From Pomacea canaliculata (taxonomy: Eukaryota > Mollusca > Gastropoda > Architaenioglossa > Ampullariidae), in NCBI RefSeq assembly GCF_003073045.1, contig NC_037600.1, positions 11,086,758 through 11,150,757 of the forward strand: DNA of 64,000 nt. Direction: 5' to 3'. Shown piece by piece: positions 3,546 to 63,137 of the stretch. The number at the start of each line of letters is the position of its first letter. Position 1 is the first letter of the stretch. The position numbers were made by a program, and so were the translations under genes. Below the pieces are notes generated by a model, which saw only the letters and a program-made list of their open reading frames with translations, was not told where the DNA came from and did not search any database.

Positions 3546-5434
3546 TCATGTCCTCCTGGATGTACGAAGGGCTGTCACCTGCTCAATAGACAATAAAGCA
3601 GCAGTTACAATGCCGGATTATTTACTTAGCGAGGAAAAAAAAACAATTCAAAAAATATTGAGCTCAGTGGAATATAAGATAAAAGTATTTCCTATTTATT
3701 ATTCATTAACTACAGATTTACAGGCGCTATAACAGTAGAACAGTGCATATGACCTTAATAGGTCCCCGAGGAAATCCCAAACTTCTCTGTATAATATATC
3801 TGTGTCTCTCACCCTATAGACTGAAGAAAATAGGTCAAAAACAGCAAAACAGGGCTGTACGACTTGTTTTGCTGCAACACCCTTGTCCTGTCCGTTGATG
3901 TAGAGGTGAAGGTCGCTTGATGAGTCCACAAGACCCCAACTCGACTCCCGACATGAAGTCTCTCGAGATCATTTCCTAAAGTGTGCGATACCTGATACAA
4001 ATACCTGATACCGTTACCTATTAACAAACTATTGTTGGGGAGGGAGATTATTTGATTTAACCTGTACCCATTCTAACTCCCGACTTATCTGCTTTTGTGA
4101 CCTTTTCCATATTTATTTTTTAATTGTAAACATTGATGAAGGAATGCTCGATGCCTTCCAAAAACATTTGTTAGGAGCAGAGATAATATGATTTTTTGTG
4201 GCCTAATGCACAAAAATTAAGAAAAAAATCCATTATTTTAGGGCTAAGGTCACATTTATTAATATCAGTTAAAACTTTAACTGTGTGATTTTCTTTTGAA
4301 TGGTAACCCTCCGCTTCAGATAATATTTTAACAAATCTAGGTGAATACCCTAATCTATATCTTTAGGCAAACGTTTGTAAACTTCATTGCACACATGATC
4401 CAAATAATCACCTATGTAACACATCGCAACTAACACATTAATTGTAATTGTCACGACACTAATGTGTACAAATACGATTCTGATGTATATCTATTTAATC
4501 CTATTCTGTAGAATGTGACGTATGCATGACTATTTTTTTACCGAAGGCAAGAAAACATTCAATTAAATATTGATAATAGTATTTGTCCCTGAATTTTACC
4601 TACTCATTAGAAAACGAAAAAAATGTCCAACTAAACCTCTAAGAATACTAAGCTAAGGAAAAGGTTAAAAAGACGTGAAACAACCTAAATTCTTCCATGT
4701 AGACCAAACCACAAAGCTATTTGATGCACTTGTATTCATGGAAACTCACACGTTTTCCCTGATGGTGAATCCAATAGGGACCGATGATGATGAAGTCTGC
4801 CTGGTCTGTGGAACACGGGGTCACAACGAGGCGTGAAGGAGGGATACTTGTCACACCCACTAACATGATGTTTTCAGCGTATGCTTTATCTACATTAACC
4901 TGCATTAACAGTACAGTGTCATCACTTGGCAAACTGCCACATTCGATAAGACGACTACGAGAACTGAAGAATGTTTATCTCTCAGTAGAAATACGAAAAA
5001 AATTGTGACCCGAGGTACTAAATATTGTAACCAGTCAATCCGTTCTTAGTGAGGTTTTCTCTAACTTATCTCAACAATTTTAAACAAATAAGATTGCTTT
5101 AACCTTGTCTGTGCACGATGAAAGAAAACTCAGAAAAATACATAAGAAAAACTTTCCTTAGTAGCACATTTTAATAACAATATTTCTCCTCCTCCTTCTC
5201 CTCCTCCTACCCCTCCTCCTCCACCTTCTCCTCCTCCTCCTCCTCCTCCTCCTCTTCATCATCATCATCATCAAAATCACTTACTTCATACAAGAAGTTT
5301 TCCACCATAACATCACGGGACACAACCACCCCATTGAAGATGCCATTGTTCTCTGCGGTGGTGTTGCCGGGCAACAGACGAATGTTGGCCCCGCAGTTTT
5401 CATGAAACACAAGGACTGGTTGCTCAGCGGTCCG
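3546..5434 (-). CDS. TN1 NHR exons (NHR1-NHR3 and terminal exon)
   Basis: NHR1 reads FHENCGANIRL then GVVVSRD, the usual start of a Neuralized repeat. NHR2 carries MLVGVTSIPPSRL, the family LxxGVTxxxP signature. NHR3 carries GSRVGVL and, in the shifted frame, DLHLYINGQDKG (family pattern LHxxINGxDqG). The terminal exon adds VTALRTSRRT and TGA. The one-base loss in NHR3 separates the two halves of that exon. Confidence 0.75.
5185..5275. repeat. (TCC)n/(ATC)n microsatellite after the TN1 NHR1 donor
   Basis: Triplet-rich tract starting about 10 bp inside the intron. It encodes an artificial acidic run if translated and is not treated as coding. Confidence 0.85.
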
Positions 5435-5877
5435 CTATAAACAACGCCCTCTTTTTGATGAAATTTATTGACAGATATTTACCAATATCTATAATGTATA
5501 ATAATAAAAAGTTAAGTAACAAAAGTTATTCGTCATAATTATTATTGTAATAGTTAATATCTCAAATGTTTTTCCTATTTGTTTTATGTGTTGTATTTTG
5601 GAGACTGGTTATTTTTAATTTTTGTACGCAAAAATTTTAGATGCTTTAAATATTTTGAGGACCTGCTAGTAAACACTTATACAAGCCGGTGTGTTCTGAA
5701 TCCAGAAAACTATTGCTTAGAATATTTTAAAAGTGAAATGTTTAAACAGTAAATTATGTAGTAGTCTCTTTTTATTGCTTGAGATGTTAAAGTTGTTAAC
5801 GATGTTTGAGCGAGCAATTTATATGATTTTTTTAAATTACTTATATAACACTGAACATACAAAAAAGCATTATTTAC

Positions 5878-6441: not shown

Positions 6442-7536
6442 AAAGATTGTGTCTGCTTAAGTTTAAATGTTGTATGCTCACTAAAATGCAACATTTACTA
6501 AACCGGTGTAACAGTAAGCCTGACCAAACTAAGGACAACTATTATAATGGAATGTTAGATGCTTTAAACTTGTTGATGACTTTCTTTAAAAAAGTGTATA
6601 TGGAAAATTATATACATACCTTCTTCCAGCTGTTAGAGCTTTTACAGTTAAGGAAATTAAGCAAATGTTCAAAACTGTTTCTAGACATGTTTTATAATAT
6701 ATATATATACGATGCTAAAAATATAGAAAAATTGTACCTTGCTTTTATTAAAAGATATTTTCTTTTTGGAAGAAACACTTGGCAGGTGAGGCTAGTAACA
6801 GAGAGAGAAGATTCAGAAATATGCGATCTTTGACTGCTAAATGTAATATTGTATTGTTCCCCTAAATGAGTTACTCGTGAAATTTCTAGACGTGTAATGT
6901 GATAGAAAATAGGTGAAAAATATTTTACACAATTTACATACATACTTGCTTTTTATAGCTACATTAATACATATATCACGAGTAAAAATAAAATGTGTAA
7001 AAAGATTATTTACCTTGATTTGCTTATCAGTCTTTTCCACTTTGAACGAGCAGCTTGAGAAGGAACTCTATTAACAGACAGAGAGCATTGAGAAACATGT
7101 CATTTGATGATCCCCAACTTGATTAACAGTCTGAAAACAAGACTCTTTTAAGAATTTTTCTTTGAGTTAGTTTGCATATTTAAAAAAAGATTTTTATCAT
7201 TTACTGCTTCTCTTTATTTTAATGTTTATTCTTTTCAGTTACTCTAAAAGGCATTTAGTAGGACAGAGAAAACAAGGTTGTAAATCATTGACTTCATTAA
7301 ATCGTTAACTTGCTTCACTGACCACAACTGATGGCCCTTATATATGTTTTATCTTGTACTTAGCGCAGTTAAATAATATACATAAACACATTAAAGTTTA
7401 AAATCTATTATATGTATATCACCAAAAACAGTTATTTATTAAGATTGCATACTAGTTTCACATACCATTAGTATGGAGTCTTAATTTGTCTGTTACTGAA
7501 TGCATTTGATGTCGTAATGAATATAAAGGTAAAAAT

Positions 7537-8677: not shown

Positions 8678-9751
8678 CTTTTGTTTTAACTCAGTCTTCA
8701 GCTGCTCCACCTTCAGTAGCTCGTCTTCTATCCGACCCACAACATCTTGACAATATTCTACACTTGAAAAGGGCTTGACCCACACCTCTTGTTTCAAGTC
8801 AGCGCTGAGGTCAAGGCTGTTGACCCTGTCTGTCAGAGCCTCTGTCATGTGCATCAGTGCAGGACGTGGTGACACTGCCGCCGCTCGCGTCACAATGTGT
8901 TTGTGTGACGTCACCTTCCCTAGACGGTTGCTAAGGTCTGTCTTGACGTCACGTAATGAATTCCTGATTTGCAGATGTGACGTACGTGTCTTTTCCATCA
9001 ACCTCCTACGGAAATCTTCCACTAACTTCTGAAGACGGTCACATGTCTTGTCTACTTGCGCCATGTCTTCTTGTTCGCTGACATCAACTTCCTGTAGACG
9101 TGACGTCAGCTGACCTATAACCTGCTCCAGCTTCTGCTCCGCTTCTACCAAAATCTTTGTTAGGTGGGTAAGTGAGTTTTCAGCTGAATGTATTTCAAAG
9201 TCAAAATCGCTTACTTTTAAACATTCACTGTGTTTCTGAACCTTACAGGATTTGCAGACGGCAAGTCGGTGATAGAAGCAAAAGCTGTCCGCCTGTTTGT
9301 CGCCGTGGTCAGCACACAGTGCAGGGCGGCTGGCAGCCAGACGTTCAGGTGTCACAGTGCTGACACTCTCCACATCGTGACTGCGGCTCACTGACATCTT
9401 CTTGTGTACTTTCGTACACGCTGTACACATCATGTCCTGACACTGCATACAGATGAAGTCCGCCCTGACGTCCTCACACACACAACAAAGGTGATCTTTA
9501 CTCAGCACACCAGCGCTCTCCACCAGCGCTTCCATCACAAAGTCTGTCGGCAGGGCGTCAACAGTGTCGGACGAACTTCCATCTGACTGCTCTACTATAG
9601 GACATCTACACAGTGGACACCCGGCATCACGTTTGGAATCCATCCAGGAAATGACACATTCTCGACACAGGAGATGACCACAGGGTAGAATCTTTGGTGT
9701 GGTGAAGTCATTTGTGCACACGGCACACTCTCTTTCGTGTGGCTCAGCCAT
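8678..9751 (-). CDS. TN1 exon 1: RING, two B-boxes, coiled coil
   Basis: 358 residues from ATG 9751; an acceptor (TATCTTCAG) lies 11 nt upstream of the ATG. RING: C9, C12, C24, H26, C29, C32, C45, C48, a complete C3HC4 set expected to recruit an E2. B-box 1: C89, C92, C101, C104, C109, C112, H116, H125. B-box 2: C146, H149, C158, H161, C166, C169, H174. A heptad-rich Glu/Lys/Leu stretch at about residues 185-290 is the likely dimerising coiled coil. All zinc ligands are present, so this exon looks functional even though the downstream NHR is broken. Confidence 0.88.
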
Positions 9752-9974: not shown

Positions 9975-10130
9975 AAATCTGTCGGCAGGTTGTCAAGAGT
10001 AGAGGACGAACCTCGATCTGACTGCTCTACGATAAGACATGTACACAGCGGACAACCGGCTTCACGTTTGGAATCCGTCTAGGAAGTGACACATTGTCGA
10101 CACAGGAGATAAGAAGAAGGTTAAATCTTT
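9975..10130 (-). pseudogene. Decayed RING-exon fragment upstream of TN1
   Basis: The minus strand retains LCRQCVTS, then a stop, then TDSKREAGCPLCTCLIVEQS and a LPTDF-like end. This is the second half of the RING with a stop and no start. It lies about 225 bp upstream of the TN1 start codon, the same spacing as the fragment upstream of TN7. Confidence 0.75.
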
Positions 10131-10714
10131 AGAGTAATCATTTATTGTCGATCACTAAACGTTGTCTTTCCTATTTCTGAGCCATCTTTGAGTCTATGTT
10201 ACTGATGTTACGAAACAGAAACGTTTCGATTTTTCTAAATTACATACTCTACGGGATAAACTCTATATTGAAAATGTAAATTTCGTAGATGAAGACTAAT
10301 AACGTGTGAAATGGAGGAAAGGAAGAAGGAAAACAATGTGAGTTTAGTAGACATCTTTCAGTGCTGTTTTCTCTATTGCTGATTGTTTTTCTCTTAGTGA
10401 TTCATCTTGCAAGTTAAATACTCTGGATGTAGAAAGAAACGAAAAAGAAAAAGAAATAAAACGTCCGCCCCGTGACATTAAAGAAAATATCAGAATTTCA
10501 GCTGATTACATGAATTCTTTTATTATTTCTATCGAATGAGATAATTTGAACACAATGATTAGAAGCAGCGAGTTGTAGATACATGATCAGTTATCGACCT
10601 GAGCAAATGTAAAATAACATGAAATATTATCCAGCACCTGAGCTCTAATACTTGTTATTCTAATTCTGTAGAAGTTTCAGGCTGTTAAAGCAAACTGTGA
10701 TTTTAACTGAACAC

Positions 10715-12109: not shown

Positions 12110-12138
12110 CTCTCAGCCTTCTTGTTCTCTAATATTCT

Positions 12139-15066
12139 TTATGTTCTCCGAGATGTAGGAAGGGCTGTCACCTGTAAAACAGACAACAGAGCAGCAGGTA
12201 CAAAGCTTAGTGCTTTACTTATCAAACAAACAAACATTTGTACAAATATCAACTTTACTAAAAAAAAAAAAAGTCTGTACGCCAACTCCAGGAAATAGGT
12301 AAGACAAGAGTCTTCTCTTTATTGCTCATTAACTGCAGTTTTCTAGACACCTTCATGTTATCACCTCTCAAGAGACCGTTCTAGTCTCCCCAGGCAATCC
12401 CAAACTCCTCTGTGAAATATAAAGTGTGTTTGTGTCAGGAACTCGACTGGTTACGATTGTGTAGTGTGTTGTTGTGACTGTGGATAACTAACCATTGTTT
12501 AGTATGGAGACTTGTATTCACTGTAAACTCATTTGAGGCATTCCCTAATAGGCCTGTGGTGCAGAAAGAGTGTGTGAAGTTTGTGTAGGAAAGAGTCGGG
12601 AAGAATGTAGTTCCTTTCCTAGCCAGTGGGGAAAAATAAAGGAAAGACATGCCCGGACAAGTGTCAAAGTTGACAGTTGAACCGCACCGAGATATTACAA
12701 ATATTACAAATATTACAAAGGTTCTACCTTCCTCATAGCTGTAACAGTTTGAACTACTGGAGCTGCAAACCGAGGCTCATTTGTTTCAAAGAATATTGAG
12801 ATTTTATTTCGGAGGTAAGGGATAACCGTCGCTACTCCCAGACTAACAGAGGGGATCCACTGACGGATAATTTTCTTCCTGTGTTGTGATTAGTCTAACA
12901 ACCTAGTGACCCACAGATGCTACCTTGCCCGACATCTTCAGTGAAAGTAGTTTATAGTTTGTGAAAGCCAATTAGTGGATCGATATCCATTATCGGACAT
13001 TGGAATTTCTTGGTTTTGAAAAAATAAAGCTTTAGAGACTGTGACCCAAGAGGTCCTAGTTAATTAAGAAAACTCAGCGATAGTCTAGAATATTTAAATA
13101 GATTTAGAGTGATTCATGTGTTTATGTATTTGTGTGTGTGTTTTCAACCCTGCATGAAGTTCTTTAGTAAAATTAACCAGTGTTTGGTTATAAACATATA
13201 GAAATTAAGGATCATGCTTAGAAAAGAGAAAAAGAATTTAAAAGAAAATAACTATGATAACAACAAATGAAGCTAATCAAGTAAAAAAATAAATTCCACT
13301 GGGCACTGAGACACCCACTGATCTCTTTGTTTTCTTCTGTCAGTGTCAGTGTCTGCCTGTATGACTGACTGTTGTGTTTGTGATAACCTGTGTCTCTTAC
13401 CTTAGTAACTGTACTGCCAATATCAAAGACAGCAAACCAAGGTTGTGTAACATTTTTTGCTGCAACACCCTGGTCCTGTCCGTTGATGTAGAGGTGAAGG
13501 TCGTTTGATGAGGTCACCAGTACCCCGACTCGACTCCCGACTTGAAGTCTCTTGAGACCTTCTCCGAGCGGTAACGGCATCTACATATAAGCACCTGGTA
13601 TTTTTGTATTTTTGATAAAATATTGAGCTTGAGGTGAGCACCCCAGCTTGACCTCCGCGTTTAACTCTACCACGCACTTTTCCACAAATACTTTTTGTAA
13701 CAGTATACGCAGGGTTGTCCATGGGACATATTTTTCTATCCCGTCCCATCCCGTCCCATGGCAATTTATGCCTGTCCCATCCCGTCCCATCCCACGGGAT
13801 GTTTCCCATGGGATTCCCATGGTATTAACAATCCTATGGACAACACTGAAAACCACTTTTCGGCTTTTGTTCTATAATTCCTGCTACTTCACATACAATA
13901 GATGATTCAGAGGAAAGATTTAAATCCTTGATGAATGAAATAACAGTAAATTTATTTTGCAATATCAAGTATCGACTACCATGGGAAATACAAATGTGTG
14001 CTGTCCCATCCCATCCCATCCTATGGGACGTTTCCCATGGGATTCCCATGGGATTCCCATTCCTATGGACAACACTGAGTATACGATAAACAATGCTTAA
14101 ACCATTCAATAAATGTTAGGTATAAGCAGGGTGATTTCATTTTATTGTCAACATATACACATCCGTCTAAGGTCTCTCTTATTGGCCTCATTCTATATAT
14201 TTGAATGTTTGTAGGCTTTTATTTACAGTAGATATTAATTTAAATTTGGGAATTGCTTTTTGTCCCTAAGTTTTACATGCTCATAAAAAAATCCACATAA
14301 ACCTTCAATCATCCTCTGTAAAATAAAAAAGTGAAAATAAGTAAATGTCACTTAGCTTTCTCTCTTACACATAGACAATACCACAATGCATTTGTACTCA
14401 CATGGAATGCCATAAATGATTGCGTGCCGTGGACGTGACCGGCCCCGATGATAACCGAGTCTTGCAGCGCTATAGAACGCTGTGTTACAAGGAGGTGTGC
14501 AGGAGAAATTTTTGTCACACCCAGTGATAGATAGTTGTTGCCACCTGTTACTTCGTCCACTCTGACCTGCGTCAACATCCCAGTGTCATGACATGTCAGC
14601 TGATTAGGATGACTATTTGCACTAAAGGATGTCAATCTTTCAGTAAAGCTACAAGCTTGACCAGAGAAAGAATGTATTGAGACTACTCAATCAGTTCTCA
14701 GTAAGCTGTCATCAAACTTGTATCAACGATGTTTGAAAAAAATGGAAACAAAATAATTCAGAGTGATTTTTTTTGTTCGTGTCTGTACCCTGTAAAAGAA
14801 ATAATCGTGCATACCAATAGTGTTTATTCTGAACTCCGATTTATTAATAACAGCACTAATAATCAAAAATAATCACTAATAATCATCGTTGTCATCATGA
14901 TAGTTTTAGTCAAATGTCTTACTTCATACAAGACGTTCGCCAAAATAGGGTCACGTGACACGACCACCCCGTCACCAAAGGTATTCAGATTTATCTTCTC
15001 CGCGGTCCTGTTACCGTTCGTCAGACGAATGTTGGTTCCGCAGTTTTGGTGGAAGACAGGGACCAA
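12139..15066 (-). CDS. TN2 NHR exons
   Basis: NHR1: FHQNCGTNIRL and GDGVVVSRDPILANVLYE. NHR2: VRVDEVTGGN and LSLGVTKISPAHL. NHR3: VGSRVGVLVTSSNDLHLYI, then NGQDQGVAAKNV and WFAVFDIGSTVTK. End: VTALPTSRRT. The 173 NHR-region residues match the usual size of one Neuralized repeat. Confidence 0.85.
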
Positions 15067-18000
15067 CTGTAAATAATATCCTTTGTCCATCAAAATTACT
15101 AACTGATCTATAGTCAACATCTATAATGTTTTAAAATAAATAATAATAAATAAGTAATCAAACTTTAATATTATTTTTTTATTGTTGTTGTTATTATTAT
15201 TCTACGTTTATTAACTGAAATTTTTTGGCATTAGTGTTATGAGTTTTGATATGTTTTTTTTATTAAGATTTGCAATCATTCTCTTAGGAAAGCCTTGTGT
15301 CCATAAGAGTCCACTTCACATACAATAAATCCCAACATACCACACATAAAACTTTACATTCGTTTGAAGAATTTCCTGGCGGTGTGATCATAGGAAATAC
15401 ATTTTACAGTTAGTAGATGACTTTACCACAAATTTCTGGACCTAATGACTTCATAAAGCATAAATAAGTGAAATAAATTTAACGAAACTACAAGAGACTG
15501 TGATTGTGTGTGTGTCTTTAAGTGTATATGTAAGGAGTTTGGATGTGCACCTTTGTGTTCAGGGTCTTTATAGTTACAATATTAGTGCATACATTTCTTT
15601 TCAACCTCTAAACAACAGTCACAACAGGATCTTGATAAAGATGTATAACAGTCTAATTTCCTCTGTTTACTTGGACCGCTGTAGGAACAGGTAATGAACA
15701 ATTATTTAGTGATGCTGTGTAGATACTTTGCATCCTCTTAAACCTTTTTAAAGGAGCCTTCTCATAGAACTTCGGTTCGCGCGTTCGGTTGCATCGATTT
15801 AAGTTCAAATGTCATGGGTGGGTGTATTGGTGTTCGGTATCGCACGAAAAAGTACAAAAAAATGATGCTTTGAATCTACAGTATATTGATATTGTGTTGT
15901 CGTTAGTCTAGAGCACATACGACCCAAGGCGTCTGTTATAATGTCTGTGTGAGCGGTAAAAGAGCACATACTTTGTTGAGTAAGATTCTACATTGTTTGC
16001 TTGTTTGGCAGATGGGTGTATTCTAAAATGACTGTTACTTTCTAGGTATGTGTTTGTTTTTTGCTGTAAATATTATATTGTATGTGTCGTGTATCTGCAA
16101 AAGATTATAAATGTGAAAAAAATCAAAAAATGTTTAAAACTGTTTCTACACGTGTTACATATATGTGTGTGTCTACACAGTTTTAAACAATTTATGTAAC
16201 ATGTGTAGAAACAGTTGTAAACATTTTTTTTCTAACATATAATGCTTAAGATATATAAAAAGATTACTGACCGGCCTCTTGTTTGCAGCATTTCTTTTTT
16301 TGAGCGAGCTGTCTGACAATGAAGTCTAGTAGAAGACAAAAAGCATTGATAGACATTTCATTACTCAGGTCTTGAACTTAGTTCTCAATCTATAAACACA
16401 GCTGTTTGTGATATTTGTCATTTACTGAGTCTAAATGAAAACAAAATGCTGCTTTTCTTTGACGGAGTCTCTTAATTTTTGTTTTTTACTGTTACTCTTT
16501 ACTCAGTTAATCTCAAGAGCAGATTAGTAGGATAAAGGTATGCAACATTTATAATTGTTGACTTCGCTAAATAAATAACTTGCTTCAATGACGACAAGTA
16601 AAGGATCTTACATTTGGATAGCTAGGGCATTAAAAATAATAATAATATATATATGTCTTACGATAAAAAATGTATATATGAACTTCAACTTTATCAGCTA
16701 AATCCAAATATTACATCGTAGGACATCACAAAAGTATTAACATAGAGGTATCACTGAGATGACCAAAACAGCTTCTTACTGTGTCAGGTTGAACTTGGCC
16801 AGGGCTGGAAACACTTGGTGGAAAAGATGTGTGTTGCATGGTCGGGGCTACATTCTGAAATAACAATTGGAGGAGGGAATCTTATGAGAGGGAAGCTTAG
16901 CAATGTTGCGAGTTATAACCTACTAAAATATGAATAAAGCTGCAAGAATGCATTTCTGCTTTATTACAGGAACGAACCGTGCAGACTGAAGTTTCCAGTG
17001 ATATACACACACATACACACAGCGATATGGATATTACTTATTGTTTTAAGCACATTGGCTATAGACGTTTTCTACAACCTTCTAAACTATGGTTATAAAT
17101 CCAAATATATACAGTTATCCTTCCCGATTCACCTATATTCTCACAAAGTCATATACATTTTCATTTAGACTGCAAAGACAGCGCAGAAAATATTATAAGG
17201 GTGCACACCCACTTCCACACCTTTTACATCCCTCCCACCACTACAATCCACCATATTTCTGAAAGATATTTTAAACAAATTGGAAATAAATAAAATTATT
17301 TTTCACAATTTGGTGTTTTTGTATAGTTTCATTACATATAAATTTCTCATCAAGTGTAACAATTAAAAACTGAATAATGGTATAATAAGGAAAGAATACC
17401 TTTGTCTTTGTTGTTTGCGGTGCCAACATCATTAAGTCTTTTTCTATCCGCCCAGCAACTTCTTGACAATATTCTGCACTTGACGAGGGCTTTTCCCACA
17501 CCTCTCCTTCCAAGTAAACGTTGCGGTCAAGGCTGTTGACCCTGTCTGTCAGAGCCTGTGTCATGTGTATCAGTGCATGACGTGGTGACACCGCCGCAGC
17601 TCGTGTCACAATGTGTTTGTGTGACGTCACCTTTCCTAGACGGTTGCTAAGGGAAGTCTTGACGTCACGTAATGAACTCCTGATTTGCAGATGTGACGTG
17701 TTAGTCTTCTCCTTCATTTTGTTACGAAAATCTTCCACCAGTTTGTGAAGTCGGTCACATATCTTGTCCACCTGCGCCATGTCTTCCTGTTCACTGACAT
17801 CAACTTCCTGTAGACGTGACGTCACTTGACCTATAGCCTGCTCTAGCTTCTGCTCCGCTTCTACCAGACTCTTTGTCAAGTGTTTTAGTAAATTTTGAGC
17901 TGATTGTATTTCCTCGTCAAGAAAGTTTACTTCCGGGCATACTTTGTGTTTGTTAGACTTACAGGCTAAGCAGACAGGGAGCCCGTGAGAGCGGCAAAAC

Positions 18001-18467
18001 ATCTCCGCCTGTTTGTCGCCGTGGTCAGCACACAGTGCAGGGCGGCTGGCAGCCAGACGTTCAGGTGTCACAGTGCTGACACTCTCCACCTCGTGACTGC
18101 GACTCATTGAAAGTTTTCTATGAACCTTTGTACACGCTGAACACAACATGTCCTGACACTGCAGACAGATGAAGTCCGCCCTGACGTCCTCACACACACA
18201 ACAAAGGTGATCTTTACTCAGCACACCAGCGCTCTCCACCAGCGCTTCCATCACAAAGTCTGTCGGCAGGGCGTCAACAGTGGCTGACGAACTTCCATCT
18301 GACTGCTCTACTATAGGACATCTACACAGCGGACACCCGGCATCGGGTTTGCAATCCATCCAGGAAATGACACATTGTCGACACAGGAGATGACCACAGG
18401 GTAGAATCTTTGGTGTCGTGAAGTCATTTGTGCACACAGCACACTCTCTTTCGTGTGGCTCAGCCAT
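12139..18467 (-). CDS. TN2: TRIM-NHR gene, open
   Basis: Predicted 529-residue RING/B-box/coiled-coil/NHR protein. Exons: 18467-17400 (356 codons), NHR1 15066-14923 (48), NHR2 14566-14402 (55), NHR3 13580-13401 (60), last exon 12171-12139 (10 plus stop). The start is the MAEPHERE methionine. An in-frame ATG 36 nt upstream lies before the probable acceptor (TATATCTACAG) and was not used. NHR2 is five codons longer than in TN1: the donor (CAT|GTGAGT) follows an extra FMAFH. The NHR half is closest to that of TN6. A 368-bp hAT-like MITE sits in the NHR2-NHR3 intron at 13710-14077, and LINE and RING remnants lie just upstream of the gene. No disruption is visible. Confidence 0.88.
13710..14077. 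mobile_element. hAT-like MITE in the TN2 NHR2-NHR3 intron
   Basis: A 368-bp element with ends CAGGGTTGTCCATGGGA and, inverted, CAGTGTTGTCCATAGGA. It is flanked by AGTATACG on both sides (13702-13709 and 14078-14085), an 8-bp target duplication as expected for hAT. The interior has many GTCCCATCCC-type repeats and a second internal copy of the right end near 13833-13847, so it may be a nested dimer. TN6 lacks it at the matching site (near 51680). No coding capacity. Confidence 0.85.
17400..18467 (-). CDS. TN2 exon 1: RING, two B-boxes, coiled coil
   Basis: 356 residues with the full RING ligand set (CAVC, CGHLLCRQC, CPLC). B-box 1 starts at CCVCEDVRADFIC. B-box 2 runs from CADHGDKQAEMFC to HKVC. 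The coiled coil contains the LVEAEQKLEQ heptads. The donor is AAG|GTATTC. Confidence 0.88.
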
Positions 18468-18904: not shown

Positions 18905-19095
18905 GAATTCTCCGACAAACGTCCATCTGACTTCTCTACAATAGGACATATACACAGCAAACACCCAGCTTCAGGGCTGGAATCCATTCAGTAAATAATA
19001 CATTCTCGACACAGGTGATGACCTCAGGGGGAAATCTTTGGAGTGGTAAAGTCATTCGTGCACACAGCACACTTTTTTGTGGGGCTGAACCCTCT
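18905..19095 (-). pseudogene. Decayed RING-exon fragment upstream of TN2
   Basis: The minus strand retains CAVCTNDFTTPKI, GHHLCREC, MDSSPEAGCLLC and PIVEKSDG, interrupted by stops after KISP and in the segment before MDSS. It is more complete than the other two fragments because it includes the first zinc-binding pair. A LINE remnant lies between it and TN2. Confidence 0.78.
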
Positions 19096-32356: not shown

Positions 32357-32387
<31 letters not shown>

Positions 32388-38379: not shown

Positions 38380-38563
38380 TCATCATTCTAGCCTAATATC
38401 TTACCTCATACAAGACGTTCGGCACCATAGCGTCACGTGACACAACCTCCCCGTTACGGAAGTCATCTTGATTTATCTTCTCCGCGGTCCTGTTATCGTT
38501 CGTCAGACGAATGTTGGTTCCGCAGTTGTCGTCGAACACAAGGACTGGTGGCTGTGCGTCCAA
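36342..38563 (-). CDS. TN5 NHR exons
   Basis: NHR1: VFDDNCGTNIRLTNDNRTAE, then NGEVVSRDAMVPNVLYE. NHR2: VRVDAASYKN and LTLGVTRISPARLPV. NHR3: ALTTLGKGLERLEVGSRVGL, LHLYINGLDQGVV and PCFAIFNIFSSITK. End: VTALPTSTMT. NHR1 has both possible acceptors (TTTACAG and GCACAG, 12 nt apart). Confidence 0.84.
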
Positions 38564-40122: not shown

Positions 40123-40168
<46 letters not shown>

Positions 40169-43488: not shown

Positions 43489-43498
43489 GCGCATGCGC
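43489..43498. promoter_or_regulatory. NRF1-type palindrome next to the LINE
   Basis: Palindrome intact, with flank AGTTAACAC. It lies 15 bp before the LINE start and marks the remnant of an intergenic block upstream of TN5. Confidence 0.45.
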
Positions 43499-43512
43499 AG
43501 TTAACACAGTGC

Positions 43513-50115: not shown

Positions 50116-52900
50116 TTATGTTCTCCAAGATGTACGAAGGGCTGTCACCTGTAAAACAGACAACAGAGCAGCAGGTACAAACAATGTACAAGTGTAAACT
50201 TTAATAAATTGAAAAAACGTTTTATGCCAACTCCAGGAGATAGGTAAGACAAGTGTCTTCTCTTTATTGTTCATTAACAGCAGTTTTCTAGACAACTTCA
50301 TGTAATCACCGTTAAAGAGACCGTTATAGTCTGCCCAGGCAATCCCAAACTCCTCTGTGTAATATAAAGTGTGTTTGTGTTAAGACCTCGACTGTTTACG
50401 ATTGTGTAGTGTGTTGTCGTCACTGCAGATAACTAAACATTCTTTAGTAGGGAGACTAGTGTTCACTGTAAACTCATTTGAGGCATTCCTTAATAGGCCT
50501 GTGGGGCAGAAAGAGTGTGTGAAGTTTGTGAAGGAAAGAGTCGGGAGTAATGTAGTTCCTTGCCCAGAAAATGGGGGAAAATAAAGGAACGACATGCCTG
50601 GACAAGTCCCAAAGTTGACAGAAGAACCTCACCAAAATGTTACAAATATTACAAAGGTTCTACCTCCCTCATAGTTGTAACAGGTGGAACTACTGGAGAA
50701 GCCAACAGAGGCTCATTTGTTTCAAAGAATATTGAGATTTTACTCGGAGGCGTGGATAACCGTCGCTACTCCCAGACTAACGGAAAAGATCCACTAATGG
50801 ATAATTTTCTTTTTGTGTTGTGATTAGTCTAACAACCTAGTGACCCAGAGATGCTACCTTTGCTTTTCAAAAGGCCTCGTGGCGGACATCTTGAGTGAAA
50901 GTAGTTTATAGTTTGTGAAAACCAATTAGCGGATCCATATCCATTATCAGACATTGGAATTTCTTGGTTTTCAAAAAAACAAGCTTTAGAGACTGTGACC
51001 CAAGTCGTCCTACTTAATTCAGAAAACTTTGAGATAGTGTAGAATATATAAATAGATATAGAGTGATTCATGTGTTTATGTATTTACTTTTGTGTTTACA
51101 ACCCTGCATGACGTTCTTTAGTAAAATTGATCGTAAAGATACAGTGTTTGGTTGTAAACATATCTACATTAAGGATCATGCTTAGAAAAGAGAAAAAGAA
51201 TTTCAAAGAAAATAAGTATTACAACAGCAAATGAAGCTAATGAAGTAAAAATAAATTCCACTGGGCACTGAGACACCCACTGATCTATGTTTGTTTTCTT
51301 CTGTCAGTGTCAGTGTCTGCCTGTATGACTGACTGTGGTGTTTGTGATAACCTGTGTCTCTTACCTTAACAACTGAACTGCTAATACTAAATACAGCAAA
51401 CCAGGGTTGTGTAGCAATTTTTGCTGCAACACCCTGGTCCTGTCCGTTGATGTAGAGGTGAAGGTCGTTGCATGAGGTCACCAGTACCCCGACTCGACTC
51501 CCGACTTTAAGTCTCCCGAGTTCTTTTGTGAGCGGTATCGCCATCTACATATAAATACCTGATATTTTTATCTTAATAATAAAATATTGGGCGTGGAGTG
51601 AGCCCCCCACCTTGACCTCCGTCTTTAACTCTAACACGCACTTCTCGACAATTATTTTTTGTAACTGAGTACGAGAAAAAATGCTTAGTATTTCCGAAAA
51701 ATGTTAGGTATGAGTAGGGTGATTTCATTTACTTGATGTACAAAAGAAGATTTTGTTTAAACACTAGGGTCTAATTTATTTAGGTCAGTAAAAGCTTTAG
51801 TTCAATTTCTCCAAACGGATTTTCCTCGGCTTAGGAAAACATTTTTACAAATCAAGTCTTAGAACACACTTCCATTTTTTTCTCCACAATTTTATAAAAT
51901 TTACCGTCCAAAAAAATCAAACCGCGAAAATAACTTATCCTATTTCACCTAAGCAAACATATACGCATTCGTCTAAGTCTCTCTTATCGGCCTCATTCTA
52001 CATATTTAGATGTCTGTAGGTTTTTATTTACAGTAAGCAAAGATTTTGATTTCAATTTGGAAATAAATTTTTTGACCGAAGATTTACCTGCTCATTAGAA
52101 ATAAAAGAAAAGAAAATTAAGCTAAGCCTTCAATTGTGCTTTGTGTAATAAAAAAAGATAAAAAAAGTGAATGTCACTTAGCTTCCTCTCTTACACGTGG
52201 ACCAAACCACAAGTCATCTGCACTCACAGATATAAAGACTTACATGTTTTTGCTGGTACAAGACCCAACCTGGCATGATGATTACGGAGTCTTGCAGGTC
52301 AGTAGACCATGTTGTCACAGTAAGGCCTGCAGGAGAAATTGTTGTCACACCCAGTGCTAGCTCGGTGTACCCATCTGTTACTGCGTCCACTCTGACCTGC
52401 GTCAACATCCCAGTGTCATGACATGTCAAGCTGTGACAGTTGATTAAGATGACTATTTGCACTAAAGGATGTCAATCTCTCGGTAAAGCCACAAGCGTGA
52501 AAAGAGAAAGAATGTATTGAGACTACTCAATCCGTCGTAAGTAAGCTGTCATCAACGTGTATTAACGATTTTAAGAAAATGGAAACTAAATCATTCAAAA
52601 TGATTTTTTGTTCGCGTCTGTAAAAGAAAGAAACATAAATAAAGTAATTTTTAATCTGAAGCCCGATTTATTACTAACAGTACTAATCATCATTATAATG
52701 ATAATCGTTGTCATCATCATAGTTTTAGTGAAATGTCTTACTTCATACAAGACGTTCGCTAACATAGGGTCACGTGACACGACCACCCAGTCACCGATAG
52801 TATTCAGCTCTATCTTCTCCGCGGTCCTGTTACCGTTCGTCAGACGAATGTTCTTTCCGCAGTTGTCATGGAACACAAAGACTGGTGGCTGAGGGTCAAA
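50116..52900 (-). CDS. TN6 NHR exons
   Basis: NHR1: FDPQPPVFVFHDNCGKNIRL and VVVSRDPMLANVLYE. NHR2: VRVDAVTDGYTELALGVTTI then SPAGL. NHR3: MAIPLTKELGRLKVGSRVGV, LVTSCNDLHLYI, NGQDQGVAAKIA and WFAVFSISSSVVK. End: VTALRTSWRT. The NHR2 donor is CAT|GTAAGT. Confidence 0.85.
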
Positions 52901-55900
52901 CTGTAAAAAATATTCTCTTGTCCATGAAAATTATACACATATCTATAGTATACTGTGTTTACTTACTAAAAATGTTTGTGTATTAGTGTTATGATTTCTA
53001 TTTGATAATTATTTTTTCTGCTGACATCTACAATCATACTCTTCGGAAAGTCTTATGTCTATAAGAGTCCACTTCCCATACATTAAATCATATCACACAT
53101 TAACCTTTACATTCGTTTGAAGAATTTACAGGCGATGAAATAAAACATTCATTCTGAAATAAATTTAGCGAAACTACAACAGACTGTGTGTGTCTGTAAG
53201 TTTTTATGTAAGGAAATGGGATATACACTTTTGTGATCTGCGTTTTGCTAGCTACAGTGTTAGTCCTGACATTTATTTAAGCTCTAAACAACAGTCACAA
53301 CAGGATGTTGATAAAGATGTATAACAGTTTGTCACGGACCATCCGCAGACATGCGCATTCTTTCCAAAAACCAATATAAGATCGCTTAAGGGTGGGCGTC
53401 CCTCCTTAGAGGCACCACTAATTATTAGAACCAAACACAAGTTTACAAGTAGACAAAATATGCACAGTAATCCACAGTCAATAATAATAACACTCCATCA
53501 CGTACACACCATCAAAGTTTACCAAGTCACTGCCGGAATCCACACGGCACCAATTTAAAGAGTTACAATAATAACACACCATCAAAGTTCAACATGTCAC
53601 TCAGCCGGAATCCACACGGCATCATATGAAGAATTACCATAATAACACACCATCAAAGTTCAACATGTTAATAACCGTTTAGTCCCTGCAGCTCTCCAGT
53701 CCCCTGGTTTCTTTTAGTCTACTTTAATCTTTTCTTCTACAGTTCAATAAATGATAAAAGAGTGTTTTTACCATACCGATAAGTTACTGTCAGGCGGGGT
53801 AGAACAATATGCAGCTGGGATAAAACTTAGAGGGAAACCATCCCTCCTCCGGCGGTTAGTTTCAGCTGACCAGGCACCCTCCCTGGTGGTGGTCGGTACG
53901 TCCGCGTAAGGAAGCCCCCTCCTTACTCCGAGTCCACTGCTCCTGCTCGCCCACGTCGGTGTGCAGTTTCTTGGCCCCCAAGAATGTGCACGGCCGGTTG
54001 CTCTCACCACAGAGCTCCCACGGCGATGATTTAGTTTCAGCTGACCAGGTACCCTCCCTGGTGGTGGTCGGTACGTCCGCGTAAGGAAGGGCAGGGTAGC
54101 CCCCTCCTTACTCCGAGTCCACTGCTCCTGCTCGCCCACGTCGGTGTGCAGCTTCTTGGCCCCCAAGACTTTGCACGGCCGGATGCTCTCACCACAGAGC
54201 TCCCACGGCGATGACGCGGACTACAGAAACACGATGTACATCCACAGTAGTACATCTGCACTAGTACATCTCCCGTAATACAGCCACTGTATCACATCCA
54301 CAGAGATGGTACTACCACAAAGTAGATCCCCCGTAATACATACATATTTTTACGTCCACAGAGATCGTCGAGTCGGTGAATTAAAACCACAAATCCACCA
54401 AATTATCATCAGCCGCCCCCTGGCCACTTATGGTCGGGCTTAAATATACCCACCCCAGTCTCTCTAGACCAGGTGTCAGCACTGCCTGTCCCGCACGTGG
54501 TCTTCGCTGAAGTGCGTCGCAAGCATTTTCTAAAAACAAACCGTCAACACCGGATGTCAACCTTCCCCCATCCCGTCTTGCCCCCTCTACTACGCAGTTG
54601 TCCGTTACACAGTTAAATTTCCTCTGTTTACTTTGAGAGCTGTAGAAACAAGTAATGAACAATTATCTAGTGATGCTGTGTAGATACTTTGTGTCCTCTT
54701 AAACCTTTTTACAAGAGCCTTCTCATAGAACTTGCTTATCGTTAGATCGTGTGTTTGAGCGCACGTTCGGTTGTATCCAGTTAAGTTCAAATGTAATTGT
54801 TGAGTGTATCGGTATCGCATGCAAAAATACAAAAGGAAAGTATGCTTTGAATCTATCACAATGCTTCCTAAAATAATACATTTCCTGAACACATGTCACA
54901 TGACCAGACTGTTTTCATAATATATTTTAAGATGGTTAAAGATTCTAACGACCTGCTTGTTAAAACTTAAGCACCCCGATGTGGTGAGAAATCAGCGGGC
55001 ACAGATAACACAGATATATGGCAAACGTGCTTTCTCTCTGTTTTGAATCACATATATATACACACTACATATAACTCCATTTTCGCTTTGTCACTAGCTG
55101 CTGATACAAGGGATTGAAAAAGGTTTCTGAAGAAATGGAAAAAGACTAGCAAACAAAAATTTTGTTTAAATGTTACAAAAACCCCGAAGAAAGAGAGAGA
55201 ATTAATTTGACAGATCTTAACCATAGAATACTCTTCATTTAATCAACAAAGTCGCTGATGTGATTCAATACCCAACTGTAAATGGAAAATTATAGACATA
55301 CTTTCTTCCAGCTGTTAGAGCTTTTACAGTTGAGGAAATTAAGCAAAAGTTCAAAACTGTTTCTTTATATGTTTTATGATATATATATATAGACGATGCT
55401 AAAAATATTGAAAAATTGTTACCTGGTTTTTCTTTACAAACTTTTTCTTTTTGGAAGAATCATTTGGCAGGTAGTAACAGAGAGAGAAGATTGAGAAATA
55501 TGCGATGGACTTGGACTGCTAAATGTAATATTGCATTGTTCCCCTAAATGAGTTACTTGTGAAATTTCTAGGCGTGTAATATAATGGAAAATAGGTGAAA
55601 AATATTTTACACAATTTACATACAAACTTGCATATAGCTACATTAATACATATATCAGGAGTACAAATAAAATGTGTGAAAAAGATTATTTACCTTGATT
55701 TGCTTATCAGTCTTTTCCACTTTAAACGAGCAGCTTGAGAAGGAACTCTATTAACAGACAGAGAGCATTGAGAAACATGTCATTTGATGATCCCAAACTT
55801 GATTAACAGTCTGAAAACAAGACTCTTTTAAGAATTTTTCTTTGAGTTAGTTTGCATATTTAAAAAAGGTTTATATCATTTTCTGCTTCTCTTTATTTTA

Positions 55901-57825
55901 ATGTTTATTCTTTTCAGTCACTCTAACAGACATTTAGTAGTGAGAGAGACAGAGAACGTCGTTACTCGTTGACTTCATTAAATCGTTCACTTGCTTCACT
56001 GACCACAACTAATGGCTCTTATATGTTTCATCTTGTATTTAGCGTATTTAAATAATATACATATACATAAACACATTAAAGTTTAAAAATCTATTATATG
56101 TATATTACCAAAAACAGTTATTTATTATGATTGCATACTAGTTTCACATACCATTAGTATGGGGTCTTAATTTGTCTGTTACTGAATGCATTTGATGTCC
56201 TAATTAATATAAAAGTAAAAATAGACATTTAAAAATGAATGGTTTGTCCATAAATATGCATATCTATACACTTTTATAATATAAATTAATACAAATAATA
56301 CAAATTAAATGTGTAATGTATAAATCTATTACAAACATCAATATAGTATCTTAAAATATATAACAATTGCTCATTACAATGTTATCCCAAATAAAAAATT
56401 GGAATACAATTTACTAATAAATAACGGGTCTAAGAATTTTCCTGACGAGTTACCCTAAGTGACTCTTACTTATACGACCAAGTTAATGTAAGTATCAACC
56501 GTTATCACAAACACGCAGAGTAACATCTTTTTTCTCTTTCTCTCAAAAATGTTTACAGACTACACATAACAGCACAGAATGGGATTTTATGTACACACAC
56601 ACCTTTATCTATCGCATTGTAACTTGGACACACTCTCGCTGGATACTTCTAGCAGAGAGGAAAGGACAATGAAAGAAGGATGGCTGAAAGACGAGGAAAC
56701 CTGTTTCTTTTAACAAAAAACAAATTAATAATACAACAAAAAGCAGTTAACCTTTTTTTTAAACTTAGTCCTCAGATGCTCCAATTTCAGGAGCTCGTTT
56801 TTTATCCGACCCACAACTTCTTGACTCCATTCTGCACTTGACAAGGGTATCTCCCACACCACTTGTTTCAAGTCAGCGCTGAGGTCAAGGCTGTTGACCC
56901 TGTCTGTCAGAGCCTGTGTCATGTGTATCAGTGCAGGACGTGGTGACACTGCCACCGCTCGCGTCACAATGAGTTTGTGTGACGTCACCTTCCCTACACG
57001 GTTGCTAAGGGCAGTCTTGACGTCACGTAATGAATTCCTGATTTGAAGATGTGATACACGAGTCTTGTCCTTTACCTTGTCACGAAAATCTTCCACCAGC
57101 TTGTGAAGACGGTCACATGTCTTGTCTACTTGCGCCATGTCTTCTTGTTCGCTGACATCAACTTCCTGTAGACGTGACGTCACCTGACCTATAGCCTGCT
57201 CTAGCTTCTGCTCCGCTTCTACCAGAATCTTTGTTAGGTGGGTAAGTGAGTTTTCAGCTGAATGTATTTCAAAATCAAAATCGCTTACTTTTAAACATCC
57301 ACTGTGTTTCTGAACCTTACAGGATTTGCAGACAACGAGTCGGTGACAGAAGCAAAAGCTGTCCGCCTGTTTGTCACCGTGGTCAGCACACAGTGCAGGG
57401 CGGCTGGCAGCCAGACGTTCAGGTGTCACAGTGCTGATACTCTCCACATCGTGACTGCGGCTCATCGAAAGTTTTCTGTGAGCCTTTGTACACGCTGTAC
57501 ACAACATGTCCTGACACTGCAGACAGATGAAGTCCGCCCTGACGTCCTCACACACACAACAAAGGTGATCTTTACTCAGCACACGAGCGCTCTCCACCAG
57601 CGCTTCCATCACAAAGTCTGTCGGCAGGGCGTCAACAGTGTCAGACGAACTTCCATCTGACTGCTCTACTATAGGACATCTACACAGCGGACACCCGGCA
57701 TCAGGTTTGGAATCCATCCAGGAAATGACACATTCTCGACACAGGAGATGACCACAGGGTAGAATCTTTGGTGTGGTGAGTTCTTCTGTGCACACAGCAC
57801 ACTCTCTTTCGTGTGGCTCAGCCAT
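50116..57825 (-). CDS. TN6: TRIM-NHR gene, open, mosaic of TN1 and TN2
   Basis: Predicted 532-residue protein. Exons: 57825-56752 (358 codons), NHR1 52900-52742 (53), NHR2 52396-52244 (51), NHR3 51544-51365 (60), last exon 50148-50116. The start is MAEPHERE; the ATG 33 nt upstream precedes the acceptor (CCTATAATCAG). Exon 1 and its 3' intron sequence (to about 55.29 kb) match TN1. From about 54.85 kb leftward the intron, NHR exons and 3' flank match TN2. The long first intron (3.85 kb) carries a 1280-bp solo LTR at 53330-54609. No frameshift or stop is seen, so this could be a working recombinant gene. Confidence 0.88.
53505..53665. repeat. Tandem repeat within the solo LTR
   Basis: About two and a third copies of a roughly 70-bp unit with recurring CACACCATCAAAGTT and GGAATCCACACGGCA motifs. 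Confidence 0.75.
53856..54214. repeat. Two-copy tandem repeat (about 175 bp) within the solo LTR
   Basis: Units start at TTAGTTTCAGCTGACCAGG (53856 and 54031) and end with CTCCCACGGCGATGA. The second unit carries a short GGGCAGGGTA insertion. It is far more GC-rich than the surrounding intron. Confidence 0.85.
56752..57825 (-). CDS. TN6 exon 1: RING, two B-boxes, coiled coil
   Basis: 358 residues. The RING has TEELTTPKI where the others have TNDFTTPKI, with all eight ligands kept. B-box 1: CCVCEDVRADFIC to HRKLSMSRSH. B-box 2: CADHGDKQADSFCFCHRL, where a Cys replaces the Tyr next to the zinc-binding His of TN1. The coiled coil starts EIHSAENSLTHL as in TN1. The donor AAG|GTTAAC is weak and shared with TN1. 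Confidence 0.88.
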
Positions 57826-60157: not shown

Positions 60158-61812
60158 TTATGTCCGCCTTGATGTGGGAAGGGCTGTCACCTGTTAAACA
60201 AACAACGAGGCAACAAGAACAGAACATAATGTTTTACCTATACAGCAAATAAACATTTTTGAAATCTCCACTTTCCGGGTAAAATCTGTACGTCAGCGGC
60301 AGGAAAAGTACTTATAATGTTCACACATTTTTTTTTACTTTAACTTCAGACTTCTGGGCATTTTCACGTTGTCACAGTTTAATAGTTATACTATCTCTAT
60401 CCGATCCGACACTATGCTGTATAACTTGTCTCTCACCTTAATGACTGTATCGTAAATACTAAAGACAGCAAAACATGGTCGTAATACAGATTTTGCTGCC
60501 ACACCCTGGTCCTGTCCGTCGACGAAGAGGTGAAGATCGTTTGATGAGTCCACTAGGACCCCGACTCGACTCCCAATTTGAAGTTTCTGGAGACCTTCTC
60601 CTAACGCGTTCAACACCTGAAGACAAATACCTATTAATTTAAGCTTTTAATAAAATATTAAATATTTACACTAATCCCCCACCTTGAATCACGTCTTTAA
60701 TTGCAATGTGCCCTTTCCAAGAATTATTTGTAACTGTGTATGATAACAAAAATTCTTCCTGCCTTCCGAAAACTATTGGGTAATGGCTATGATGGTTGTA
60801 TTGTTTCGTGACACAAAGGTCCTGACTTACGACTGAGGTCTGATTTATAATGAGGTCAGGTAAAGCCTTAATTAAATTTCTTTCTCCTTACTATGTATTC
60901 CTCGGCTTAAGTCAACATTCCCACAGATTTGTGGGAATCACCTACTTCCTATCTTATACTCATTCAAGCTGAACGTATACATAAGGGATTTTTATGTCTT
61001 GTTGAAATTTCCCTGTACACTGTGATGTTGTTAGGCACATATCTACAGTAGACAAAGAAGTTTGGGTAAATAGCATGTCACTAATTAGTGTGTACTAATT
61101 AGAACACGATCATTTAAGTAAACCTTTAAAATGCTGAGTTAACATGAAAAAAGTGAAGGAAGACCAAACCACAGAGCCATTTGTTTGTACATGTAGCCAT
61201 GGAAACTCACAGTTTCTCCTTGGTGGAGGACAAAACTGGGCCCTACAATGACGGGGTCTTTCAGGTCAATGGACCCGTTTGTCACTAGCAGCTGGTCAGG
61301 AGGGATTCCTGTGACACCCACGAATAGTTCACTGTATCTTGCTGATACTGCGTCCACTCTGACCTGTGTCAACATTACACTATCATGACATGCCAATATG
61401 TGACAGCTAATTAGGGCGAGTACTTGATCTACATACTGCCTCTCTCTTACTATAAATTAAACAAAAAGCGTGACCAGAGACATTATGTTATGATACTACT
61501 CAATCCATCGAGATAAGCTTTCAAATTGTCTTCACGATTTGAAGCAAAAATTCAGAATGATTGTTTTGTTTTCATCACTGTGATATAAGAGAAATAGGTG
61601 TGAATGACATTAAATGTTTTACCGTAGCACTTTAAAAAAAATATTACTACTAATAATCATCATACTTCATACAAGACGTTCGTCGACATAGCGTCACGAG
61701 ACACAACCTGCCCGTTGCCCAATGTATACGGCTCAATTTTCTTGGCGGTCATCTTAAAGTTCTTCAGACGGATGTTGGTTCCGCAGTTTTCATGGAACAC
61801 AAAGGCTGCTGG
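60158..61812 (-). CDS. TN7 NHR exons
   Basis: NHR1: FVFHENCGTNIRLKNFKMTA then NGQVVSRDAMSTNVLYE. NHR2: VRVDAVSARYSELFVGVTGI then PPDQLLV. NHR3: LQIGSRVGVLVDSSNDLHLF, VDGQDQGVAAKSV and PCFAVFSIYDTVIK. End: VTALPTSRRT. All exons are open. Confidence 0.84.
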
Positions 61813-63137
61813 CTGTGTGTCCAAATGTAAATGATATCCAGAAACAAAAACATACACACGCACACACAGACTGTCTTTCTCAAAAGATAGTTCTACAGAC
61901 TGCATATGATACCATAATTTTTTTAACGCACACACATTGACGCTCTCTGAATGCCGATACAAGCAAGGGAAAAGTAAAGGTCCTTGAGATGAGAATGACA
62001 ACTATAAGACAAAATAACTGTTGTGTTAACAAAAAGGGCTAAATGAATAATAAAATACCAAAAATATACCTCTGACTCTGTGTTCTGTTGACTGAACTTC
62101 ACGAGTTCGTTTTCTATCCGACCCGCAACTTCTTGACACCATTCTACACTTGACAAGGGTTTTACCCACACCTCTTGGTGCAGTTCAGCGCTAAGGTCAA
62201 GGCCGATGACCCTGTCTGTCAGAGTCTGTGTCATGTGTATCAGTGCAGGACGTGGTGACACCGCCGTGGCTCGCGTCAAAATGTGTTTGTGTGACGTCAC
62301 CTTCCCGAGACGGTTGCTAAAGTTAGTCTTCACTTCACGTAATGAATTCCTGATTTTGAGATGTGACGTGCGAGTGTTTTCCTTTAACTTGTTACAAAAA
62401 TCTTCCACCAGCTTCTGAAGACGATCACATGACTTGTCTACCTGCGCCATGTCTTCTTGTTCGCTGACATCAACTTCCTGTAGACATGACGTCACCTGAC
62501 CTATAGCCTGCTCTAGCTTCTGCTCCGCTTCTACAAGAATCTTTCTTAGGTCGTTCAGTGAATTTTGGGCTAATTCTTTTTCATCTTCAAGATAGTTTGT
62601 TTCTCGACATACTTTGTGTTTGTGAGACCTACAGGCTGAGCAGACAGCGAGGCGGTGCTCGCGGCAGAAGAACTCCGCCTGTTTGTCGCCGTGGTCAGCA
62701 CACAGTGCAGGGCGGCTGGCAGCCAGACGTTCAGGTGTCACAGTGCTGACACTCTCCACATCGTGACTGCGGCTTACTGAGAGCTTCTTATGAACATTGG
62801 CACACGCTGAACACAACATGTCCTGACACTGCATACAGATGAAGTCCGCCCTGACGTCCTCACACACACAACAAAGGTGATCTTTACTCAGTACACGAGC
62901 GCTCTCCACCAGCGCTTCCATCACAAAGTCTGTCGGCAGGGCGTCAACAGTGGCGGACGAACTTCCATCTGACTGCTGTGCTATAGGACATCGACACAGA
63001 GGACATCCAGCTGCAGATTTCGAATCCATCCAGGAAATGACACATTCTCGACACAGGTGATGACCACAGGGTAGAATCTTTGGAATGGTAAAGTCATTCG
63101 TACACACGGCACACTCTCTTTCGTCTGGCTCAGCCAT
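60158..63137 (-). CDS. TN7: TRIM-NHR gene, open, compact
   Basis: Predicted 526-residue protein. Exons: 63137-62070 (356 codons), NHR1 61812-61666 (49), NHR2 61363-61211 (51), NHR3 60616-60437 (60), last exon 60190-60158. The start is MAEPDERE. The first intron is only 257 nt, by far the shortest in the array. At NHR1 the upstream acceptor position reads TTTACAT, so the AG 12 nt further on (CACACAG|CCA) was used. The NHR1 donor is GTATGA. The distal leader is expected beyond the right edge of the window, judging by the TN1 arrangement. Confidence 0.86.
62070..63137 (-). CDS. TN7 exon 1: RING, two B-boxes, coiled coil
   Basis: 356 residues. RING: CAVCTNDFTIPKILPCGHHL then CREC and CPLCRC, all ligands present. 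B-box 1 has SACANVHKKL. B-box 2 reads CADHGDKQAEFFCREHRL as in TN3. The coiled coil contains LVEAEQKLEQAIGQVTS. The donor is GAG|GTATAT. Confidence 0.88.

Follow-up and report, generated by a model that had tools for sequence, protein, structure and literature searches.

What a snail might do with dozens of ubiquitin ligases of an unfamiliar build is the question raised by a 64,000-nucleotide stretch of the Pomacea canaliculata genome (NC_037600.1, positions 11,086,758 to 11,150,757; hereafter the window). It carries seven tandem genes in which the RING, B-box and coiled-coil (RBCC) module of TRIM proteins is followed by a Neuralized repeat (NHR). The intracellular recognition of viruses and parasites in molluscs, which have no antibodies, is poorly known. 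A concrete candidate for such a system is offered here by an invasive snail whose tandem ligase genes number in the dozens and carry a recognition domain that evolves fast. We consider it reasonably probable that the genes represent a family of TRIM-type RING E3 ligases that has expanded in this lineage. In it, the NHR would stand where antiviral TRIMs have PRYSPRY, their pathogen-recognising domain, and would serve as the variable target-binding domain of a family acting in defence in the manner of finTRIMs or TRIM5. The observations behind this reading, namely domain composition, joined gene models, array size, a SPRY-like predicted fold, the selection pattern, conflict between trees and the caenogastropod origin of the listed relatives, were obtained by sequence analysis.

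The spliced proteins of all five intact window genes matched the Neuralized profile PF07177 (71.7-91.0 bits, profile positions 1 to 147/148 of 149, cut-off 23.3), an N-terminal RING (zf-C3HC4, 33-39 bits, cut-off 21) and a B-box (zf-B_box, 33-43 bits, cut-off 24.1), in agreement with the domains that a first-pass annotation of the window had named. All 24 zinc ligands (8 in the RING and 16 further ones) and W36 are intact in 16 of 16 open copies. Behind the B-boxes, helix is predicted at 183-293, and a profile of this coiled-coil part matches solved chains of TRIM28, TRIM25, TRIM72 and TRIM3. The predicted NHR best matches solved NHRs, the nearest folds being those of KIAA1787 (NEURL4) and Drosophila Neuralized, followed by the SPRY domains of TRIM9/67; it is modelled as a SPRY-like beta-sandwich. 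At E 0.001 none of the five intact window proteins has a SPRY match, and hence none a B30.2 domain of the finTRIM type. In proteins of the NEURL1/3 type, the RING is located C-terminal to the NHR. The snail proteins share the NHR with NEURL1, NEURL3 and NEURL4 but differ in having an N-terminal RING with B-boxes and coiled coil, a single NHR and no C-terminal RING, ending about 10 residues past NHR exon 3. By these profile matches the family is one of TRIM (RBCC) proteins with an unusual C-terminal domain, the NHR, and with predicted ligase function. The C-terminal fold of a divergent annotated protein, P0047, is predicted to be NHR- or SPRY-like.

The first-pass annotation had described an RBCC exon followed by four exons completing the NHR, seven times over. 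Positions, minus strand, phase-0 introns with GT-AG splice sites and exon order held for genes 1-7 (3546-63137): an RBCC exon of about 1.05-1.13 kb (RING, B-box 1, B-box 2, coiled coil), then NHR1-3 and a short last exon encoding the C-terminus (approximately VTALPTSRRT). Some amendments were required. Only five of the seven genes are open; gene 1 has a frameshift in NHR3 (an exon of 179 nt), and the RBCC exon of gene 3 is out of frame. Additionally, genes 1, 4 and 6 have a small phase-0 linker exon in the RBCC-NHR1 interval, recognised from the annotated proteins P0002 and P0021. The linker of gene 4 (25 codons) is unlike the 18-codon linker common to genes 1 and 6; the latter two, about 49 kb apart, encode identical peptides and are part of a longer similar stretch.

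Gene models and extent of the array

That RBCC and NHR form one gene is supported by annotated models. RefSeq models of this type draw on RNA reads. We compared 76 Pomacea proteins, of which 26 map at 98.5% or more to a closely examined region of 304 kb (10,846,758-11,150,757, with a single gap of 100 N); one of the 26, P0017, is an open reading frame of the window rather than an annotated model. In eight of the mapped proteins (P0002, P0005, P0008, P0010, P0037, P0043, P0063 and P0073), RBCC and NHR3 of a single unit are joined. Among the 120 proteins compared for the window, gene 6 is the sole gene with a full-length annotated model: P0002 (550 aa) corresponds to it over its whole length, agrees with the predicted exons and adds the linker at 55694-55747. 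In the same comparison, P0020 matches gene 7 over 406 residues, the RING-less model P0037 covers gene 3, a single chimeric model, P0021, spans genes 4 and 5, and genes 1 and 2 have no annotated model of their own. P0001 is a fusion of two units. In P0021, the RBCC comes from gene 5 and the NHR from gene 4. Splicing across units was considered as its origin and set aside, though kept as a lead: the switch lies within the polyglutamine (gene 5 before it, TKPK of gene 4 after it), where there is no splice site, and the model is therefore probably an artefact of read mapping or annotation.

A genome profile search (118 matches in an assembly of 440,159,624 bases; the window lies within C11, 24,344,826 bases) showed that Neuralized matches continue well beyond the window. 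We hand-picked 74 of these, on C11 and at C2:30.7-31.0 Mb, which reach the 3' half of the Neuralized profile; the 44 excluded were 5'-end pieces, separate Neuralized-type genes (C2:37.3 Mb, C5, C10, C12) and C2 pieces that stop short of profile position 110. For 69 of the 74, a same-strand RBCC locus was found less than 12 kb upstream, and for 71 the closest RBCC locus shares the strand of the match. Moreover, 26 units in the 304 kb (9 plus, 17 minus) contain all four exon types in constant order; according to the profile search, all four are complete and unsplit in 16 of them, while 10 have a split or incomplete exon. Because of the 69 matches and the constant order in the 26 units, the adjacency of RBCC and NHR is not a matter of chance.

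An alternative is that the RBCC and NHR exons are separate transcripts. Many of the other mapped models indeed end after exon 1, and a full annotated model is absent for most window genes, which speaks against the pairing. Yet the joining of both halves within one unit by eight mapped proteins, the order and strand held in 69 of 74 cases and the annotation of the joined protein in four other snail genera make separate transcripts, already disfavoured, scarcely credible. The domain pairing proposed at first pass can thus be regarded as real.

Its figure of seven genes reflects only the size of the window sample, as the tandem array holds dozens. Searching with the RBCC exon of gene 2, we scored 114 of 308 candidates and merged them into 105 loci, a lower bound that includes some broken or only about 40% identical copies and for which the NHR was not confirmed locus by locus. 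At least 61 of these lie in C11:10.86-11.62 Mb and form an array of about 760 kb; 44 lie outside it, with at least 22 on C2 at 30.7-31.0 Mb and at least 22 elsewhere on C11. The strand alternates blockwise along the array: plus as far as 10.976 Mb, then minus up to 11.150, plus again until about 11.40, minus at 11.42-11.45 and mixed from there on. Two RBCC exons in the array, at C11:11013774 and C11:10979537, lack a complete set of recognisable NHR exons downstream.

Selection and exchange among units

The 16 complete units were used for tests of selection. For the NHR (161 codons), the one-ratio omega, the modelled ratio of nonsynonymous to synonymous rates (dN/dS), was 1.12, and the likelihood-ratio test (LRT) of M1a against M2a gave 151, with 25% of codons at omega 3.7 and a posterior >0.9 for 29 codons. 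The LRT of M8 against M8a was 149. Each NHR exon was significant on its own tree, and 143 gap-free interior codons still gave an LRT of 135. In simulations under M1a, the LRT reached at most 4.9 (24 runs), or 19.5 when the exon trees differed (16 runs), and the one-ratio omega ranged from 0.50 to 0.70. By counting, dN/dS was 0.44 for the RBCC exon (dN > dS in 0 of 120 pairs) and 0.65, 0.78 and 0.69 for NHR1-3 (34, 40 and 28 of 120 pairs). Along the sequence, the selected codons form clusters (gaps of at most 2 between neighbours: 16 observed, 9.2 expected, p 0.0017). Judged by the codon models, the NHR is under strong diversifying selection, which is concentrated in this domain.

Several points weigh against this reading and against a role in defence. 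The codon models are custom-made and were checked by simulation alone. The counting ratios of the NHR (0.65-0.78) remain below 1 and below the model estimate. The RBCC exon, our control, gave omega 0.55 and an LRT of 26, with 12% of codons at omega 2.2; this LRT is not far above 19.5, the largest value of the recombinant simulations, which were of the NHR only. In the structural model, loops hold no excess of selected codons (15/29 vs 61/131, p 0.68). Finally, comparable selection can also arise from sexual, maternal or allorecognition conflict. Exchange within exons might inflate the NHR values, too; that it would raise a one-ratio omega above 1 seems unlikely. Within the RBCC alignment, codons 60-90 and 120-150 show an unusually low dS of about 0.14, compared to 0.24-0.80 in the other segments given, as though gene conversion had homogenised this stretch or a constraint acted on the DNA itself.

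The same data bear on three further explanations. First, the units might mostly be decaying duplicates under relaxed constraint, which would account for the split or incomplete exons in 10 of the 26 four-exon units of the 304 kb and for the two frame-broken genes among the seven of the window. This explanation, already disfavoured, is highly improbable, given that neutral-class models are rejected with an LRT of about 150 and that the zinc ligands are intact in all 16 open copies. Second, the first-pass annotation had mentioned Notch-ligand-like trafficking. On such a reading, Neuralized-like ligases, subfunctionalised by tissue, would act on Delta/Jagged-type or other membrane proteins. The predicted fold is indeed nearest to the NHRs of KIAA1787 (NEURL4) and Drosophila Neuralized; for trafficking itself we found nothing in support. 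The RING is of the TRIM type and N-terminal, and neither a one-ratio omega above 1 nor split or incomplete exons in 10 of 26 units resemble what a conserved developmental substrate would entail. Strong diversifying selection and copy turnover argue against a substrate of this kind, and we consider this explanation very unlikely.

Third, the diversification might be directed not against pathogens but against endogenous fast-evolving partners in a reproductive or self/non-self conflict (gamete or transposon proteins, allorecognition). Tandem expansion and diversifying selection would be expected equally in this case. On the other side, three reports speak against it: finTRIMs of teleosts, the nearest known family of such build, were discovered as virus-induced transcripts (PMC2657112), a combination of TIR and neuralized domains is reported in the Pacific oyster and a centipede (PMC5094078), and TIR and COR proteins of Aplysia are listed with the NHR as one of their domains (PMC9334734). 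We therefore hold a conflict of this kind to be unlikely, though worth keeping in mind.

In the favoured reading of a defence family, the proposed mechanism would involve dimerisation, ligase activity and target binding. The coiled coil would form an antiparallel dimer, the RINGs would recruit E2~ubiquitin, the fast-evolving NHR surfaces would bind foreign or otherwise changing proteins, and the bound targets would be ubiquitinated or signalling would be triggered. The idea of the NHR as target-recognition domain, put forward at first pass, fits the SPRY-like predicted fold, the NHR-centred selection and a SPRY-bearing relative in Littorina (see below), with binding itself as the predicted step; the immune role suggested alongside is a leaning that we derive from evolution and the likeness to finTRIMs. 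Diversity might be generated by tandem duplication, by diversifying selection on the NHR and by units trading RBCC and NHR modules with one another.

Evidence for the latter comes from a comparison of distances and trees. RBCC distances showed no significant correlation with those of NHR1 or NHR2 (Mantel r between -0.03 and 0.26). For NHR3, r ranged over 0.20-0.45 and reached significance in two of the four RBCC segments, namely B-box 2 (p 0.040) and the coiled coil (p 0.001). The NHR exons are correlated among each other (r 0.29-0.55). The NHR alignment rejected the RBCC tree by 169 log units, and the RBCC alignment rejected the NHR tree by 837. The NHR alignment accepted the NHR1-2 tree (approximately unbiased (AU) test, p 0.09) and marginally rejected the NHR3 tree (AU p 0.017). 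Unit 10995828 groups with genes 4 and 5 in the RBCC clade (bootstrap 100) and falls outside their NHR clade, while unit 11004156 shows the reverse pattern. This conflict indicates module exchange between units, and since the two halves of the RBCC exon each reject the other's tree (183 and 573), exchange inside that exon as well. Thus, the trees are pointing to RBCC and NHR modules having been exchanged between units, with the caveat of misassembly in a tandem array. Through this conflict, modular reassortment in a tandem innate-immune array can be tested directly. More tentatively, and with slightly less than even confidence, we propose a large, diversifying TRIM recognition system of the caenogastropods' own, with the NHR in the slot that PRYSPRY has in vertebrate TRIMs. 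Constant ligase modules and variable NHR blocks, reassorted among dozens of tandem units, would give it a repertoire of cytosolic immune ligases that is mixed and matched in the germ line.

Relatives and known systems

Among the matches listed (the best 120 of 124 and the best 120 of 258), we found 85 distinct proteins with RING and PF07177, including some isoforms or fused models: 43 from Littorina, 21 from Pomacea, 9 from Babylonia, 8 from Batillaria and 4 from Nucella. The same pairing thus occurs in five genera, and all 85 listed proteins are from caenogastropods; the lineages of four species were checked, and Nucella we take to belong there as well. The wide searches scored only the 7,996-7,997 candidates sharing most words, from which the range in other molluscs is not inferable. 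Environmental matches in the same lists have a RING without PF07177. A search with the NHR of Littorina P0070 only (residues 366-537) returned four proteins, all from Littorina, and is too insensitive to define a range. When 62 of the 85 were placed in a tree, the 18 rows from Pomacea fell on one side of a branch (support 100) and those from Littorina into several groups; the expansions are therefore lineage-specific, as had been anticipated for this family.

In an RBCC-only tree of 43 rows, the RBCC of Littorina saxatilis P0111 is nested among TRIM-NHR rows (support 100/100). P0111 carries a SPRY domain (PF00622, 39.1 bits) and has no PF07177 match at E 0.001; it thus resembles the snail TRIM-NHR proteins in its RBCC and differs by SPRY instead of NHR. 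Its position therefore suggests that NHR was swapped for SPRY in P0111, a single annotated model. The snail family also suggests that another domain with this fold can occupy the SPRY slot of TRIM proteins. With one Littorina model hinting at a replacement by SPRY, the logic of recognition may extend beyond the particular domain.

TRIM5alpha and other PRYSPRY TRIMs are under diversifying selection. They share with the snail family an RBCC and a C-terminal recognition domain of SPRY fold; in contrast, the snail domain matches solved NHRs better than SPRY, and its array comprises dozens of genes. PMC2657112 also names this selection and describes finTRIMs, which have in common with the snail family tens of clustered TRIM genes with nearly constant RING and B-box, a variable and positively selected beta-sandwich at the C-terminus, expansions specific to single lineages and signs of domain exchange. 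Our own data for the snail show both the clustered expansion with near-constant RING/B-box and the positive selection in the C-terminal recognition domain. According to the same paper (PMC2657112), the C-terminal domain is B30.2 in the fish proteins, whereas it is the NHR in the snail, and virus induction has been shown for finTRIMs. By analogy, the snail proteins most likely work like finTRIMs without being finTRIMs. Their parts are ordinary; the arrangement is new, the scale large, and the evolutionary signature that of recognition. In titles and abstracts of the open literature searched, we found no description of a TRIM-NHR family. Two Pomacea genome papers (PMC6129957, PMC11417965) contain no "Neuralized", and the "trim" matches examined in them refer to read trimming.

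Exon coordinates and minor features of the window

All exons are on the minus strand. Gene 1 consists of exon 1 (RING, B-box 1, B-box 2 and coiled coil; 8678..9751), the 18-codon linker exon (7014..7067, by match to P0002, peptide as in gene 6), NHR exons 1-3 (5285..5434, 4750..4899 and 3813..3991) and the last exon with NHR end and stop (3546..3578); the broken 179-nt NHR exon 3 reflects a pseudogene or an assembly error. Gene 2 comprises its RBCC exon (17400..18467), NHR exons at 14923..15066, 14402..14566 and 13401..13580, and the last exon (12139..12171). In gene 3, the frame-broken RBCC exon (24517..25562) is followed by NHR exons at 23632..23790, 23150..23302 and 22233..22412 and the last exon (21927..21959), this NHR part being contained to 100% in annotated P0037.

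Genes 4 and 5 both have polyglutamine at the end of the RBCC exon. For gene 4, this exon (32321..33451) precedes the 25-codon linker (31729..31803, by match to P0021), NHR exons at 29985..30158, 29411..29563 and 28484..28663, and the last exon (28200..28232); P0021 implies the NHR exon 1 start at 30158, compared to 30131 in the first model. The corresponding exons of gene 5 are the RBCC exon (40110..41234), NHR exons 1-3 (38405..38563, with a possible alternative start at 38578, 37903..38055 and 37237..37413) and the last exon (36342..36374). All exons of gene 6 are represented in P0002: RBCC (56752..57825), 18-codon linker (55694..55747), NHR1-3 (52742..52900, 52244..52396 and 51365..51544) and last exon (50116..50148). 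Gene 7 contains an RBCC exon (62070..63137), NHR exons at 61666..61812, 61211..61363 and 60437..60616, and a last exon (60158..60190); residues 1-406 of its spliced protein are 100% present in P0020.

Decayed relics of RING exons, likewise on the minus strand, lie upstream of genes 1 (10002..10169), 2 (18911..19078) and 7 (63367..63534). Such relics are found 5' of exon 1 in 7 of the 26 array units and represent old first-exon duplicates travelling with the units. Scans of the window for tRNAs and Rfam families gave no match. Retrotransposon reverse-transcriptase fragments (RVT_1, DUF6451) sit both between and inside units, at 43489-44808 on the plus strand (frame interrupted at 43948-43950) and at 7664-8185 on the minus strand, and an intron of gene 4 contains a tandem repeat of 15- and 46-base units (31384-31519).

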